Part shown: positions 10,685 through 17,121 of the stretch, piece after piece | Position numbering within the stretch: position 1 is the stretch's first letter | Layout of the letters: every line of letters starts with the position of its first letter | Assembly (NCBI RefSeq): GCF_000026185.1 | Contig: NC_010694.1 | Coordinates: 2,232,001-2,296,000 of the forward strand | Origin: Erwinia tasmaniensis Et1/99 | GTDB lineage: Bacteria; Pseudomonadota; Gammaproteobacteria; Enterobacterales; Enterobacteriaceae | Length of the DNA stretch: 64,000 bases | Reading direction: 5' to 3' | Translations under genes and position numbers: made by a program | Notes under the pieces: generated by a model | What the model saw: only the letters and a program-made list of their open reading frames with translations | What the model was told of the DNA's origin: nothing | Databases searched by the model: none

Positions 10685-12079
10685 ATGCCAAAGAAAACTT
10701 ATAACCTGAATCAGGCCATCATTTTATTCATTCTTGCCATGATGCTGTCGACTATCGGCCTTGCATCACGTGACATTGCCTCGCTGTCGCTATTCTGGCC
10801 CTGTAATGCCGTATTTCTGGGATTACTAATCCGCTTTACCTCGCTGGATAAACCCGGCAACCTGCTGGTGCTCTTTTTCGGCATGTTATTTGCGGACCTC
10901 TGCTACGGCACCGAAATTGGAGTCGCTATTGGCCTCAACGTCGCCAATATCGTTTTTATTGCCACCGCGCGCTGGGTACTGCTCACCAGGCACTTCAACC
11001 GCACCCGCCCACGACGACTACAGGCTTTGCTGCACCTGTTTCCGGCATCGCTGTGCGGGGCGGCAGCCTGCGCGCTGGTTGGTGCCTTTATCAGTCGACA
11101 TTATTTTGATGACCAGCTGTTAAATGCCTGGTCCTCGTGGTTTTCAGAACAGATGTCGACCTCGATTCTGCTGCTGCCGCTGGTCATCAGCCTGCCGCGC
11201 CGCGACCAGCTCCCCCAGCTCATCGCGGTGCTGCGCGACAGCAGTATTCTTCCTCTGCTGACGCTACTCGTGACTATCGCCGGCGCGATCTGGCTCGGAG
11301 GAGGCGGTAGCCTGCTCTTTCCCCTGCCGGCATTACTCTGGTGCGCCATCAGTTATCCGCTGTTTATCACCTGCCTTCTGACCATGATGACCGGCATCAG
11401 TGAAATTATTTTGGTTGCCGGCAATGTACTCAGCATTCAGGGCAAAGGTTACCTGTTTCGCATCGACAGCCTGTCATCGGCCCGACTTGGCGTGGCGGCC
11501 ATGCTAATCAGCCCGCTGATTGTCAGCCTAAGTACCATCTCAAATAAAAAGCTGGTGGCGCGCATTACCCGACGTGCTGACTATGACTTTTTAACCGGCG
11601 CACTGACCCGCAGCGGTCTTTCAGCGAAACTGGATCTGCTGGTCACCGGACGCAACAGGCCGCCGTGTTTTTCTGGCGCAGCGCTGGTGATAGACATCGA
11701 CCGTTTTAAAGACATCAATGACACATGGGGTCACGCGGCAGGAGACTATGTACTGGCTAAAACCGCAGAATGTTTACGTGCGGCGTTACCGCAGTCGGCG
11801 TTGGTTTGTCGTATGGGCGGAGAAGAGTTTTTGATTTTGATCGAGGGGATTGCACAGCCACGCTCGTTGCTGCTGGCCAATCGATTACGACGACACGTTG
11901 AAAGAAACAAAGTTTTATTTAATGGCAATGACCTGAGCGTCACGGTCAGTATCGGCATTAGTGCACTGAACATCAGTAACGTGAATAGCCTTGACGAGTC
12001 GATTATGCGCGCCGATGAACAGCTCTACATCGCTAAAAGCAGCGGCCGTAATCAGGTAAGGCCGGAATTTGTCTTATAA
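10685..12079 (+). CDS. MASE1-domain diguanylate cyclase (GGDEF, active GGEEF site)
   Basis: A 464-residue membrane protein predicted to make the biofilm/motility messenger c-di-GMP. Residues ~8-285 form a MASE1 sensory domain with about eight hydrophobic helices. Residues ~298-455 form a GGDEF domain: DFLTGALTRSG, the metal/substrate segment VIDIDRFKDIND, and RMGGEEF with the catalytic GGEEF at 378-382. The allosteric RxxD I-site expected just upstream is absent (PQSA instead), so product inhibition at this site is not expected. The C-terminal ADEQLYIAKSSGRNQV is conserved. It resembles the Edc cyclases of Erwinia, but I cannot assign which one. It stands alone, convergent with the tailspike gene. 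Confidence 0.9.
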   Translation: MPKKTYNLNQAIILFILAMMLSTIGLASRDIASLSLFWPCNAVFLGLLIRFTSLDKPGNLLVLFFGMLFADLCYGTEIGVAIGLNVANIVFIATARWVLLTRHFNRTRPRRLQALLHLFPASLCGAAACALVGAFISRHYFDDQLLNAWSSWFSEQMSTSILLLPLVISLPRRDQLPQLIAVLRDSSILPLLTLLVTIAGAIWLGGGGSLLFPLPALLWCAISYPLFITCLLTMMTGISEIILVAGNVLSIQGKGYLFRIDSLSSARLGVAAMLISPLIVSLSTISNKKLVARITRRADYDFLTGALTRSGLSAKLDLLVTGRNRPPCFSGAALVIDIDRFKDINDTWGHAAGDYVLAKTAECLRAALPQSALVCRMGGEEFLILIEGIAQPRSLLLANRLRRHVERNKVLFNGNDLSVTVSIGISALNISNVNSLDESIMRADEQLYIAKSSGRNQVRPEFVL

Positions 12080-12360: not shown

Positions 12361-14109
12361 TTAATAATAGGCAATTTTCCTGTCTGTTCCGTTAATATTC
12401 ACCGTCATATAGCCGCTGGGCGTCAGATCGGTCGGCACATTTGCCGTAGCGGTGGCTATTGTCAATACCCCTTCCTCATTCGCCCCTACCCCTGCCAGGC
12501 CATTATGAAAACTTATACGCGCGGCCGGAGATACCGTTCCAATGGTGTTAAGATCCTCAACCTCATCCAGATCGGGGGTAAATAATGAACAGACGCCAGA
12601 CTCAAAGCGTGTTGGCCCGGTGGATGACAGGTTAAACAAGGTATCGCCACTATTGGCCTTCAATTTTATCCAAATTTCAGATGTGGTCGTTCCAATACGG
12701 TTGTATTTAATGTCGAGTACCGCCGGTAATCCGTAATGGCGGATGTCGCCGTAAATCGCCTTAGCGCAGCGTGAAATCGCGAGAAAGCTGGTGCCTGAAG
12801 AGATTGCCGTGACCGGATTGCCGGCAATTCCGCTTATTTCTTCATTGGTCAGTTTGCCTGTCATCTCAACAATCCACTGCTGATTTTCTTTCGGCATAAA
12901 AACTTTGCCCAGTTTGTACCACTTATCGCTGGCAGAACTGTTGGTTATTCTGTAGCCGCTGTGCCAGCCCACCCGTAAGGTGCCCGTCATCTGCGTGCCA
13001 AAACTTTCATCCCGACGCCAGCCGGTTTCAAAGCCGGACAGCCAGCGATCGGCGGTGCTGTTCACGCTGACCGAACCGCCCGATTGAAGATTGAGTTGAC
13101 GGATCTGTACGCGTGCATTGTCGAGGATCAGCGGATTATCACAATCTTCCAGACTCAGCGCTTCCATCAGCCACTGGCCATTATTCAGGTCGCCGGGAAA
13201 ACGGGTGTGTTCTATCCAGACATTACGCAGAATCCCCTGAGTGACACGCGGCATCATCAAGGTCGCATCTGCGTAGCCATGCTGAAAGTTTGCATTCGAC
13301 AATTCTATCGCCGTTGAATGATCCCATACGCCGTTTGCGCTGCCAGACCAGCCGACGTCGAAAATCCGCCCGTAGGTGTTATTGGTATAAATCCGGTCAA
13401 AGCAGGTATCAAAAGTATCAAGTAATTTAAATACCGTGCCACCGTTGTTCTGTGCACGAAAACAGCTGACCTGAACGACCTCTCCTGCAGTGGTGATATT
13501 TTCAAAAAAAGGTTGTTGGTTGCTGCACATTTCGGCCGATATTGCCCCCTGGTGAGTGACAACATCGGCACTGGCGCGGCCGTCCCAGCTCATTCCTTTA
13601 ATGACCACGCGTCTGGCCTGAACCTTGAATACGGGTTTGGTCGACATGTCGGAGACAATGGTCGTACGCGGTATCACGCCCTGTGGATCGTCGTCACCGT
13701 AAAGATAGAACAGCCGCATTTCACTGGCAGAGACATCGACGGGGTGAATTAGAAAATGACCGGCGGGGAATCGGACCCCGATACTTTTATCCTTAGCATT
13801 GACGCCTAACGCCCAGTCCAACATTAATTTACATGCCGGACTGTCATCGGTGAGGGCGTCACCTCTCGCGCCAAAGTGGAAGATGTTCAGTTCTTCTACG
13901 CTATGACTCACGCGCTTCCAGTAAAATCCCTCCCCCACGGCCAGCGTACCGCCGTCATCTACCGGCAGCACGGTTGCGGTAAATCCAACAAAATCACCCC
14001 CGCCACGAAGGCCGGGATCCTCTTCGTAATAACTTGCTAAACGCGCTATTTCACCAGACTTAGTCGGTTCGGTGAGGCGCAGTTCAGCAAAAGAGTTAAC
14101 TTGGATCAT
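12361..14109 (-). CDS. Phage-tailspike-like beta-helix protein, putative exopolysaccharide depolymerase (AmsF/WceF-like)
   Basis: A 582-residue protein with the layout of a podovirus-type tailspike. It has a short N-terminal module (SFAELRLTEPTKSGEIARLASY...GGGDFVGF, ~6-45) of the kind on Enterobacteria tailspikes, then a pectate-lyase-like opening FHFGARGDALTDDSPACKLML (~78-98). A long right-handed beta-helix follows (~100-400), then a beta-rich C-terminal part. Similar proteins occur in Erwinia/Pantoea EPS clusters (AmsF, WceF); WceF is reported to cleave stewartan. There is no signal peptide, as in true tailspikes, and no other tail genes nearby. GGAGG precedes the ATG by 6 bases. Substrate and export are inferred or unknown. 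Confidence 0.75.
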   Translation of the reverse strand: MIQVNSFAELRLTEPTKSGEIARLASYYEEDPGLRGGGDFVGFTATVLPVDDGGTLAVGEGFYWKRVSHSVEELNIFHFGARGDALTDDSPACKLMLDWALGVNAKDKSIGVRFPAGHFLIHPVDVSASEMRLFYLYGDDDPQGVIPRTTIVSDMSTKPVFKVQARRVVIKGMSWDGRASADVVTHQGAISAEMCSNQQPFFENITTAGEVVQVSCFRAQNNGGTVFKLLDTFDTCFDRIYTNNTYGRIFDVGWSGSANGVWDHSTAIELSNANFQHGYADATLMMPRVTQGILRNVWIEHTRFPGDLNNGQWLMEALSLEDCDNPLILDNARVQIRQLNLQSGGSVSVNSTADRWLSGFETGWRRDESFGTQMTGTLRVGWHSGYRITNSSASDKWYKLGKVFMPKENQQWIVEMTGKLTNEEISGIAGNPVTAISSGTSFLAISRCAKAIYGDIRHYGLPAVLDIKYNRIGTTTSEIWIKLKANSGDTLFNLSSTGPTRFESGVCSLFTPDLDEVEDLNTIGTVSPAARISFHNGLAGVGANEEGVLTIATATANVPTDLTPSGYMTVNINGTDRKIAYY

Positions 14110-14558
14110 AATAACCTCCAGGACATTGCACGGCTGTGCAGCGCCTTATTCAGGATAAACGAGAAGAGTTAGGTTAATTGAGCTTTAAAGAGTGGTATGG
14201 CAGTTTATGCTGTGCACTTATCCATGAAGCCTCTCTATAACCAAACAAGACGTTGTAATTCCACGGCACCGCACGCACATCAAAAAAATCGACATCTATC
14301 TACCACTCCAAATAACCTGCGTAATTTCTAATACAAATACGACGTCTTACTATTGCGTACGTTTGCATCGATACCCCGACGAACTCCTTTTCTTACCGTA
14401 AGGCTGTGAGCACCCTAAAAAATAATTAATAAAATTAAGGCACGCGCCGGGATGTTAGAAATCGATACTAATAGCGTATAACGGAAATTGCGTACGCAAC
14501 GGTCAACGAAACGAATAATCGATAAATTAACGTATGATATGTTGATAAGAAGAATTAA
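14110..14558 (-). promoter_or_regulatory. 449-base leader between antiterminator Q gene and tailspike gene
   Basis: No ORF of note. On the minus strand a TTGACC -35-like hexamer is followed after 19 bases by TTATAC, and the spacer contains the perfect 12-bp palindrome TTGCGTACGCAA (14488-14499). The core ATTGCGTACG recurs at 14352-14361. A 19-base spacer with an embedded palindrome is typical of promoters needing an activator that twists DNA. In lambdoid phages the stretch after Q holds the late promoter and Q-utilisation site, so this may be a relic of one. Confidence 0.4.
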
Positions 14559-14930
14559 CTACGCAAGGTTTTCACATTCAAGCTCACTCTCCAAAGCGGT
14601 CAACACTCCGCAGATAAAGCCTTCCGCCGTCTGGATCTTTCTGCGAATACTCCCGTCCGCGCAGCGTCGTCGCCGGGCTATGGAGCGCAGAGAAATCTGA
14701 TAGAGATAGTGAGCAACCAAAATATCATGCTGCTCTTTAGATACTTTCGCCAACCGGCTAATGCAGCTATCAATGATAATGCCATCATCATCACTGCACT
14801 GAAGCCTGCTGCTGGCATGGTGGGTAATTAATCCTCTGAAACCTGACGCCACGGGGGCATATCCCAGCCTGCGTTCACCCAATGCAGCCCATCCCCCCCA
14901 TCGTCTTAATAATAGTTTGATGTCTCGCAT
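14559..14930 (-). CDS. Orphan phage antitermination protein Q-like
   Basis: A 123-residue protein matching the short Q class of lambdoid phage antiterminators (Phage_antitermQ). It begins MRDIKLLLRRWGGWAA, has the mid-segment GFRGLITHHASSRLQCSDDDGIIIDSCISRL, then a C-terminal HTH-like part (LRSIARRRRCADGSIRRKIQTAEGFICGVLTALE). Such proteins let RNA polymerase read through terminators at the phage late promoter. No holin, lysozyme, terminase or integrase lies next to it; the next gene downstream on the same strand is the tailspike, 449 bases on. It has AAGGAG about 7 bases before the ATG and looks intact. Confidence 0.8.
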   Translation of the reverse strand: MRDIKLLLRRWGGWAALGERRLGYAPVASGFRGLITHHASSRLQCSDDDGIIIDSCISRLAKVSKEQHDILVAHYLYQISLRSIARRRRCADGSIRRKIQTAEGFICGVLTALESELECENLA

Positions 14931-15625
14931 AGGTAGCTCCTTGCTAAATTTAGATGCAACGCCAACGCCGCTGGCAGGCCAAAGACGAAGTCGTTGCCGT
15001 AGGCCGTACGATCTCCAGTGAATAACTGGATCTACTGATAGCTGGCAGAATAAAAAGGATTACTCTTTGCCAGTAAGCGTCAGATCGGTGCTTAAAAAGG
15101 CTGACTGGTATCTGAATCTATTATTATATGTCCATCCCTCATGACGCCGGATATTTCATCTGCGCACGCGCTTTAATTTTCCCTGTATAACACCACGCAA
15201 TAGTTAAATCTATAGATACTATTACTTATAGCAAAAAGTATTATTTATTTTTTAATAGCGAGATCATAAAAATGACTGATATTGAGAAAGGCATAAATCA
15301 TTCCCTTATTGATAGCCGGGAAATCTCATCTGGACATCAGACAGATACTACTAAGAAAAATTAAGGAGCACTTGCATTTAGACTTTTATAGCGAAAAAGA
15401 CGCACCGATAGAGGGATGAGTGGACGAGTTCAGTCAAAATGCGCTGAAGAGTACGGCAAGACTGAAGAAGATCCTGTAGGTTCGATGATCAATAATAATT
15501 AAATGGTCAATACATGCCGAGATGTCACGAGGGGATCAATATAATTGATTGTATTTAGAGGCTAATTTGATTCATATCATGGTATGGAAGCGTTAAAACA
15601 GGCCACGATGTGCGGCCTGTCGGGT
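14931..15625. other. 695-base AT-rich accessory spacer
   Basis: AT-rich DNA upstream of the Q gene with only very short frames; one of 30 codons starts at 15272. No recognisable protein, tRNA or repeat was found. The composition differs visibly from the flanking core genes, as expected for decayed phage or other acquired DNA. Confidence 0.5.
15594..15620 (-). terminator. Terminator for the 90-residue ORF
   Basis: Read on the minus strand, a 7-bp stem ACAGGCC/GGCCTGT (15598-15604 and 15614-15620) with a 9-base loop is followed by TTTT. It starts 6 bases after the stop of the small gene at 15626, which supports that gene being expressed. Confidence 0.65.
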
Positions 15626-15898
15626 TTAACAATCACTTTTGCTGTCAAGCTCATCACTTTGCATAGACTCAATAAACTCACGTTGTTCGGTAGTCAGATC
15701 CCAGTCATCCAGATTGGGCACTTCCACCCTTCTGTCTTCCTCGACATCTTTTTGAGAAGATGAGGGGTTGTCGGTCATATTGTTAGCAAATTTTATTTTT
15801 TTATCCATAAACTCTGTTAATGAACATGAGTCAGAAAGAGAGTTCAACTCGCGCGCACATTCCCGGTACAACTCTCTGAACGTTTCTCTCGCTGACAC
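15626..15898 (-). CDS. Small acidic hypothetical protein
   Basis: A 90-residue frame with a GTG start preceded by AGGGAG at a good distance and followed by a hairpin terminator, so it looks like a real transcription unit. The protein is acidic and hydrophilic with no membrane segment; the second half is rich in Asp/Glu (KDVEEDRRVEVPNLDDWDL, EQREFIESMQSDELD). An internal Met31 is an alternative start. No family is recognised. Its setting between cheV and phage remnants suggests acquired DNA. Confidence 0.5.
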   Translation of the reverse strand: MSARETFRELYRECARELNSLSDSCSLTEFMDKKIKFANNMTDNPSSSQKDVEEDRRVEVPNLDDWDLTTEQREFIESMQSDELDSKSDC

Positions 15899-16066: not shown

Positions 16067-17023
16067 TTATAGCTCTGCGTCTTCCAGAACCTTAGAAATG
16101 ACCGCAGAGAGCTGCTTTATTTCAAACTTTGCCACATAGCCGTTGGCTCCAACTTTACGCACGTGGTCTTCGTTGGCACTGCCGGAGAGTGAAGAGTGGA
16201 TCACTACTGGAATATTTTTAAGATTCGGGTCGCTTTTAATATTACGCGTCAGGGTGAAACCATCCATTTCTGGCATTTCAAGATCGGTTAATATTAAGCC
16301 GATTTTGTCATGGATAGAAACCCCTTCGGCCTGCGCTTCCTGATACATCTGCTTGATTTTCACCCATGCTTCCAGACCCGTGTTATACATCATCGCTGGG
16401 ATGCCCATCGCTTTCAGCCCTTGCTCAAGCATCTGGCGAGCGACTTTAGAATCCTCAGCAACAATCGCTACTGCATTAGCACGCAGTCTGAACGACTTCG
16501 CATCAATGTCGCCCTCCTTCACTTCCCGCACTGAAGGAATGATGTCGTGCAGGATCTGCTCAACATCCAGCACCATTGCCATTTTATTCTGATTATCCAG
16601 GCAGGCAATGCTGGTGATATTACGCGTACTGACACCCGATTCAGCGGCTCGCACCTGGTTCCAGTCCAGCCTGACAATGTCTTCTACCGACTCAACGGCA
16701 AACGCCTGGGTACTGCGCGCGTATTCGGTGACCAGTAACAAGTTTAGCCCGGTCTCTGGGGTACAACCCGCAACGGCCGGCAGGTCGATGACGGGGATCA
16801 GCTGACCGCGAATATTAGCCATGCCGAGCAAAGGAGACTTCATTCCGGCAGCGCGGGTTATGTTTGTCATCGGCACGATTTCGCGCAGTTTAAACACGTT
16901 TATGCCGAATAATTCAGGCTGTTCATCCTGATAAGCGGCCCCCAGACGGAACAACAATAGTTCAAATTTGTTCGATAATGCGAGATTCGCTCTCTCATCA
17001 ATCTCTTTCTGAAAGTTATCCAT
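16067..17023 (-). CDS. cheV: Chemotaxis coupling/response-regulator protein CheV
   Basis: CheV couples chemoreceptors to CheA and carries its own receiver domain, probably a phosphate sink for adaptation. Its 318 residues contain a CheW-like domain (~17-165: LLLFRLG, YGIN-type FGINVFKLREIV, NIRGQLIPVIDL) and a receiver (~185-312) with acidic ED (190-191), phospho-acceptor Asp247 in LILTDLEMPEMDGF and Lys299. The frame is open upstream to 17104, but MDNFQKEIDER at 17023 matches the family start. It is present in Salmonella and Erwinia but absent from E. coli K-12. A sigma-28 promoter lies just upstream. Confidence 0.95.
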   Translation of the reverse strand: MDNFQKEIDERANLALSNKFELLLFRLGAAYQDEQPELFGINVFKLREIVPMTNITRAAGMKSPLLGMANIRGQLIPVIDLPAVAGCTPETGLNLLLVTEYARSTQAFAVESVEDIVRLDWNQVRAAESGVSTRNITSIACLDNQNKMAMVLDVEQILHDIIPSVREVKEGDIDAKSFRLRANAVAIVAEDSKVARQMLEQGLKAMGIPAMMYNTGLEAWVKIKQMYQEAQAEGVSIHDKIGLILTDLEMPEMDGFTLTRNIKSDPNLKNIPVVIHSSLSGSANEDHVRKVGANGYVAKFEIKQLSAVISKVLEDAEL

Positions 17024-17094
17024 GTCTACCCCAAGTCTATTGTTCATTATTGTCCACTGACGCGGCGCAACGCTATCAGGCATCGTTTTCGTTG

Positions 17095-17121
17095 TTATCG
17101 GCAATAGTGAGAAAAAATACA
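17095..17121 (-). promoter_or_regulatory. Sigma-28 (FliA) promoter of cheV
   Basis: On the minus strand a perfect -10 GCCGATAA (17095-17102) is preceded by 11 bases and the -35-like TGTATTTT (17114-17121; consensus TAAAGTTT, 5 of 8). It is 72 bases upstream of the cheV start. Class 3 control by FliA fits a chemotaxis gene. Confidence 0.7.

Follow-up and report, generated by a model that had tools for sequence, protein, structure and literature searches.

A window of 64,000 nucleotides from Erwinia tasmaniensis Et1/99, the whole stretch of DNA that was analysed, carries a gene for a phage-type antiterminator, Q, and a gene for a tailspike-like exopolysaccharide (EPS) depolymerase, both on the minus strand and 449 bases apart (Table 1). 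An earlier note had described the two as intact genes on one strand without lysis genes, and family matches and a tblastn search bear this out. The pair is bordered by lolCDE-like and GGDEF genes on one side and by CheV-like and flagellar genes on the other; several of the flank-gene names were read from the sequence. The whole window was searched by tblastn (E 0.01) with the endolysins, holins, spanins, repressors and N-like open reading frame found at the corresponding site, here termed locus 1, in sister genomes, and no relative turned up. In the E. tasmaniensis genome no relative of the endolysin or of the locus-1 repressor was found. Judged by repressor and lysis genes, the window does not hold a lambdoid prophage.

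The Q protein matches the family Phage_antitermQ (PF06530) over its full length, positions 1–118 of 118 (E 7e-43; 145.8 bits against a cut-off of 26), and the PHROG family 'anti-termination protein Q-like' at E 8.8e-36. The only solved relatives revealed by a profile search are two 162-residue Q proteins, the 6P18 and 6JNX groups (E 7e-9), and the solved 162-residue relative is presumably Q21 of phage 21. A fragment of a second Q gene (30 residues, 47%) is found elsewhere in the same genome, at L183:9014-9103.

The depolymerase matches the family phrog_4250, 'EPS depolymerase', at E 2.7e-160 over profile positions 149–725 of 786, and because the match starts at position 149, the N-terminal part of the family is missing. 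With it the particle-binding part is absent, and no virion genes adjoin the pair, whose direct neighbours are host genes. The catalytic beta-helix part is recognizable from this match and from homology to the solved WceF protein (6TGF), which is the only strong match among solved structures (E 2.1e-98; residues 4–581 against WceF 170–731). The closest phage relatives are proteins of Erwinia phages, at most 45% identical over the whole length. No signal peptide, the twin-arginine translocation (Tat) signal included, was seen when the N-terminus was read by eye. A longer homologue, 36% identical, is present separately in the same genome (G000:C2:1502523).

Table 1. Features at and around the Q–depolymerase pair (positions in the window)
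Feature	Positions	Strand	Basis or remark
Q antiterminator gene (PF06530)	14559..14930	-	123 amino acids; Pfam and PHROG matches, profile match to solved Q proteins, ratio of nonsynonymous to synonymous substitution rates (dN/dS)
EPS depolymerase/tailspike-like gene	12361..14109	-	582 amino acids; PHROG match, phage and WceF homology, dN/dS
Q–depolymerase spacer	14110..14558	-	449 bases; endolysin, holin and Rz/Rz1-like genes in the corresponding interval of 16 sister loci
Candidate Q-dependent late promoter	14469..14498	-	palindrome TGCGTACGCA (14489-14498), then -10-like TATTA; four species identical in 29 of 30 alignment columns
Block upstream of Q, candidate promoter/operator of Q	15182..15238	-	boxes CTTTTTGCTATAA and TATACAGG; conserved in four-species alignment
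GGDEF gene, host flank, site marker	10685..12079	+	family match, locus mapping, tree
CheV-like gene, host flank, opposite side	16067..17104	-	locus mapping, dN/dS

The earlier note had suggested looking for conserved pairs outside prophages, and a genome search found them: in 21 of the 37 genus genomes, Q and depolymerase genes share a strand and adjoin the same GGDEF gene. Within the fetched stretches, CheV-like or fliE/fliF genes form the opposite flank in 19 of these 21 loci, the exceptions being L072 and L080. PF06530 is present in 30 of the 37 genomes. Depolymerase relatives, counting longer 36% homologues, were found in 28 of the 98 relatives searched, and 26 of the 28 belong to the genus. 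In ten genus genomes that have fliE/fliF, the pair was not found in the ~14–16 kb adjoining. L101 represents an empty site, where the GGDEF and CheV matches are separated by 88 bases. The site is not judgeable in the remaining six genomes, which have no such fliF or end at a contig boundary; five of them have no depolymerase relative and one has only the 36% kind and below. A small open reading frame of 90 amino acids adjoins the CheV-like gene of the window (15626-15898, minus strand), and several sister loci have a relative of it at the corresponding position.

In 17 of the 21 pair-bearing genomes, the two genes are part of a larger module that also comprises a CI-like repressor and an endolysin, the latter encoded between Q and the depolymerase. 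Holin and Rz/Rz1-like spanin genes are additionally present in 16 of the 17. At L071/L124, a module with repressor, Q, endolysin and depolymerase shows no match to a holin or spanin among these genes. On the Erwinia persicina copy (L067) the endolysin belongs to PF00959, the holin to phrog_1356 and the Rz-like spanins to phrog_1026 and phrog_1275. T4 lysozyme has the spacing Glu-8-Asp-5-Thr, and this spacing is kept in the five endolysin copies that were read. The notion of a tailspike newly paired with Q is rejected, since lysis genes stand between the two in most sister loci. The earlier idea of a domesticated pair holds in that the pair is conserved; what it did not foresee is that the pair is probably the remainder of a larger conserved module of repressor, Q, lysis genes and depolymerase, in most cases with an N-like gene and a nut-like site. 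Because of this, the locus is read as a likely release system that has been cut down, and not as a fresh pairing.

The CI-like repressor gene is divergent from Q in all 17 larger loci and is at least 77% identical to the query copy. All 17 genus copies keep an S24-like serine, but Tyr stands at the position that is Lys in two other families of repressors. Ordinary SOS self-cleavage of the locus-1 repressor is therefore unlikely, induction by that route is set aside, and a trigger from outside becomes plausible. Such a trigger is what would be expected if the full module were an anti-phage suicide device. Infection would then lift repression or bring in N or Q, the cell would burst early and the depolymerase would strip the slime around it, and the locus of the window's clade would be a fragment. 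This proposal would not account for Q remaining under selection once the lysis genes had been lost (see below), and it is considered quite improbable.

The larger modules resemble the control region of phage 21 in their N-like gene, repressor, gene order and RNA signals. An N-like gene lies behind the repressor, with its arginine-rich stretch intact, in 13 of the 16 loci scanned. Along the first 46 residues its product is similar to N of phage 21 (50%, E 3e-4), and it matches phrog_271 weakly (E 0.0078). The leader between repressor and Q contains a boxA and a boxB-like hairpin with the loop CTAATC or CTAACC in 17 of 18 loci, that is, in 16 of the 17 genus loci and in Izhakiella; the annotated nut sites of phage 21 have the boxA GCTCTTTA and the loop CTAACC. 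A further likeness is Q, which is related to the solved 162-residue Q protein, presumably that of phage 21. A terminator-like hairpin separates the candidate late promoter from the endolysin gene in both full loci scanned. Thus, the larger modules look like the N/nut, CI and Q–late promoter anatomy of a phage of this type. Unlike phage 21, they show no cro, cII, replication, integration, packaging or virion genes at the site, and the window retains only Q and the candidate late promoter.

Four loci are reduced: those of the window, of Erwinia piriflorinigrans (G009), of G016 and of G020. None has a repressor, an N-like gene, a boxA of the above type or lysis genes at the site. A repressor relative was not found in G000 (the genome of the window), G009 or G016, and only one of 38% was found in G020. 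The reduced loci form one clade, with support of 100/100 in the depolymerase and GGDEF trees and 100/99 in the Q tree, and are grouped with six full-module loci; the trees were midpoint-rooted for drawing only. This clade is most naturally explained by loss of genes from a full module, with the change then running from the larger to the smaller locus.

Pairwise identities of the depolymerase and of Q each follow those of the host GGDEF gene at r 0.82, as expected under vertical descent. The alternative is that a mobile satellite of Q, lysis genes and depolymerase was acquired repeatedly and independently. Related modules with other repressors do occur at other places (a proA-like gene adjoins them in L091 and L083, and in L091 an integrase as well), and Q and depolymerase identities correlate with each other at r 0.62 only. 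Repeated acquisition is difficult to reconcile with a GGDEF flank common to all 21 locus-1 copies and an opposite flank shared by 19, and with the way both genes track the host gene; it can hardly be credited.

The ratios of nonsynonymous to synonymous substitution rates were calculated by the Nei-Gojobori method for all six pairs of the four reduced genomes, one genome per species. They are 0.023–0.081 for Q, values that are rough where dS approaches saturation (up to 2 in some Q pairs), and 0.093–0.132 for the depolymerase. Host genes give 0.034–0.083 (CheV-like), 0.095–0.151 (GGDEF) and 0.048–0.057 (lolC). As judged from these ratios, Q is under strong purifying selection in the reduced clade.

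The spacer between the two genes has a candidate functional motif. Its longest run of invariant positions among the four species, 22 nt at 14498–14477, starts with the palindrome TGCGTACGCA, and 7 further invariant bases end in TATTA. This block is invariant, whereas the spacer overall is 42–45% invariant. None of 100,000 column shuffles, from which the ribosome-site end was excluded, equalled the 22-nt run; spacer columns are not independent, and the figure should be taken as a rough guide. In the genome there is a single exact copy of the extended motif, the one in the spacer of the window. A partial second copy, AAACGTACGCAATAG, is found ~130 bases further into the spacer (14350-14364, minus strand); it is largely kept in E. 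piriflorinigrans (L061) and not in G020 or G016. RNA folding of the spacer revealed nothing clear (z -1.84 and -0.05 for the window, 0.87 for L061).

Could Q and the depolymerase be chance survivors of a decaying prophage, with no joint role? The repressor, N and lysis genes are absent from the clade of the window, and parts of the module are decaying in several relatives: the depolymerase has stops in G026, is fragmented in L114 and lies in pieces in L159, L162 and L165; the endolysin is broken in the second locus of G028 and in pieces in L138; and in the module of Izhakiella (L164:5028-5663) the repressor reading is stopped after 10 residues. These are points against a selected pair. On the other hand, the Q ratios do not exceed 0.081 with dS as high as 2, the motif block is invariant within a much less conserved spacer, and both genes are retained in the four species of the clade. 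For these reasons the chance-leftover reading is rejected, and we regard it as very unlikely. The earlier argument that full-length frames speak against simple decay is strengthened: the frames are full-length, and the low ratios of Q, the conserved motif and the four-species clade are added to it.

Exact copies of the 10-mer TGCGTACGCA are found at most 2.6 kb downstream of Q in 21 of the 34 Q genes examined, most of which are related and hence not independent. By class, the 10-mer follows Q in all four reduced loci, in 15 of the 17 larger genus loci and in 2 of 12 Q genes located elsewhere, but not in the single Izhakiella locus (0 of 1). The two Q genes located elsewhere are related ones of the prophages L116 and L118, where the 10-mer lies upstream of the holin and further late genes. 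The Q proteins accompanied by the motif have in common a helix, SLR-x-[IV]AR[RK]R-x-C, and the ten Q proteins with other helices are all without the motif. The palindrome was not found after Q in the fetched stretches of phages mEp460, PhiR5_1 and APSE-8.

Other assignments of the motif were considered and rejected. It is not a likely repressor operator, as the exact 10-mer is present once per locus-1 locus, after Q and not between repressor and Q. Two candidates for a second target of Q in the genome were also set aside: a single-mismatch match (L182), which by eye resembles a short repeat and has no -10 box, and the 10-mer in L100/L183, which is located inside a holin-like gene. Separately, at L094:5238 an exact 10-mer with a -10-like box is found ~3.9 kb upstream of a second depolymerase locus, with no Q nearby.

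These searches bear on the alternative that Q is kept for another target or role, such as another promoter or a resident prophage, and that the depolymerase has its own, Q-independent promoter. No terminator that Q could pass was found ahead of the depolymerase, and Q has the lower dN/dS of the two genes, both of which would fit. The sole genomic occurrence of the extended motif is in this spacer, however, the only single-mismatch match being the L182 repeat, and the motif block has been conserved despite loss of the lysis genes. We consider the alternative unlikely.

Several observations weigh against a selected pair with a working Q-dependent promoter in the spacer. With two mismatches allowed, the extended pattern gives 6 genome matches, as does a reversed control. 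The 10-mer is absent after Q in L073, L082, Izhakiella L164 and 10 of the 12 other Q genes (three with little flank), and the Q of L082 has the helix without the motif. There is no good -35 box, and a simple promoter scan does not report the motif. The 10-mer is found twice away from any listed Q (L094 and L100), which is about the chance expectation. In L064, terminator-like sites total 7 against 6.2 in shuffles, no excess. Besides the modest r of 0.62 between Q and depolymerase identities, those of the repressor correlate with the other genes at r 0.23–0.35 only, one of the repressor copies compared being a stump of ten residues. Lastly, no terminator-like site was found in the window spacer between the candidate promoter and the depolymerase, and antitermination proper may be gone there. 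The earlier idea that a late promoter survived and that Q acts through it on the depolymerase is well supported when taken as a reduced form of a wider module for lysis and release, but the missing terminator-like site speaks against antitermination in the literal sense.

With these points considered, the pair is probably the selected remainder of an old, chromosomally fixed control-and-release module of the phage 21 type, in which Q likely still switches on the depolymerase. Homologies, gene order, the shared site, the single reduced clade, purifying selection, conservation of the motif and the company that it keeps with this type of Q are read directly from the genomes; loss as the direction of change, promoter activity, binding of Q to the motif, enzyme activity, lysis and the exit of the enzyme in the window's clade are parts of the model. 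In most sister loci the CI-like repressor would hold the module off. On relief of the repressor, N would act at the nut-like site and Q would be made; Q would then act at the late promoter, so that endolysin, holin, spanins and a cytoplasmic EPS depolymerase are produced together. Through the lysis of some cells the enzyme would reach the slime. In the clade of the window, the repressor, N, nut site and lysis genes would have been lost, and Q, the late promoter and the depolymerase kept. Here Q would act at the 14469–14498 block and raise transcription of the depolymerase alone. Since no terminator-like site follows the candidate promoter, Q may relieve a promoter-proximal pause rather than pass a terminator. 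The model does not explain how the enzyme would be released without a lysis cassette or visible signal peptide, which counts against it. Perhaps release depends on spontaneous cell death or on other prophages, or the enzyme acts intracellularly.

Related arrangements are found elsewhere. One scan with a depolymerase profile gave 50 named loci that were classified. The repressor–Q–lysis type accounts for 10 loci. A different CI-like repressor with endolysin, holin and spanins is found in 27, mostly in Pantoea; a third repressor with endolysin and holin in 3; and another Q with lysis genes in 2. The other 8 loci are without one or more parts, and include the reduced locus of E. piriflorinigrans. 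Loci of the Pantoea type show no PF06530-like Q. They have (L140:7787-8694 and others) an N-like gene and a long conserved boxA-hairpin leader between the repressor and lysis genes, the N-like protein matching phrog_271 (E 4.6e-12) and gene 24 of P22 (36%, E 1e-5). The association of depolymerase, lysis genes and a phage repressor is thus recurrent, and its positive regulator is likely to be Q or N.

Other variants were seen. L086, L087 and L088 represent a separate locus with another Q, a lambda-type holin, an endolysin, a depolymerase and then an Rz-like gene. In a Mixta locus (L135:7362-8575), genes that appear by eye to be transposase-like lie between the N-like gene and the endolysin. In E. 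tasmaniensis itself, two holin-like genes at L183:5266-6420 (G000:C2:2195265-2196419), 58% and 62% to those of L092, adjoin a gene that by eye is DinI-like; other species have a second locus of repressor, endolysin, holin and depolymerase at that place.

The earlier note knew of no described system of this kind. This stands at most for the depolymerase as the target, as control of a retained lysis operon by Q is in print: the Q of the defective prophage DLP12 of Escherichia coli K-12 is reported to control the kept SRRz/Rz1 lysis operon, with an effect on biofilm (Rueggeberg, 2013, cited in PMC7918800). In DLP12 the cargo is the lysis operon only; here it is a polysaccharide depolymerase, and the window has no lysis genes. 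Type 10 secretion of Yersinia entomophaga involves release by a lysis cassette under a PhoB-like regulator, RoeA (PMC10847048; PMC10101115). The larger modules are similar in that a cargo gene is accompanied by genes for holin, endolysin and spanins, a combination found in 16 of the 17 larger genus loci and not in the window. They differ in that the regulators are a phage repressor, N and Q, and the window form has no cassette.

The depolymerase itself is homologous to glycosidases of the WceF/AmsF type. The gene for WceF of Pantoea stewartii is part of the EPS cluster, and the protein carries a Tat signal (PMC7949094). Unlike these, the window gene lies outside an EPS cluster, between lolCDE/GGDEF and cheV/fliE and beside Q, and its product aligns only from WceF residue 170. 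It differs from the tailspikes and EPS depolymerases of Erwinia phages in its host flanks and in the absence of the N-terminal part. In the open-licence literature searched, no paper was found on a Q–depolymerase pair or module, or on a Q kept after loss of lysis genes.

Domesticated lysis cassettes are known. In Erwinia and relatives, a phage regulatory cascade has seemingly been kept by hosts across a genus without the phage, and with a depolymerase as a late gene. Whether a whole decision circuit of the phage 21 type was captured for programmed-lysis enzyme release, and was stripped in the window's clade to a two-gene, non-lytic Q switch, is about an even chance. As a natural experiment, the four species that lack the lysis genes raise the question of whether Q can serve as a stand-alone host regulator, and they make the link from Q to the depolymerase accessible to a direct test. 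If true, this would bear on how plant-associated bacteria thin or leave their own slime.

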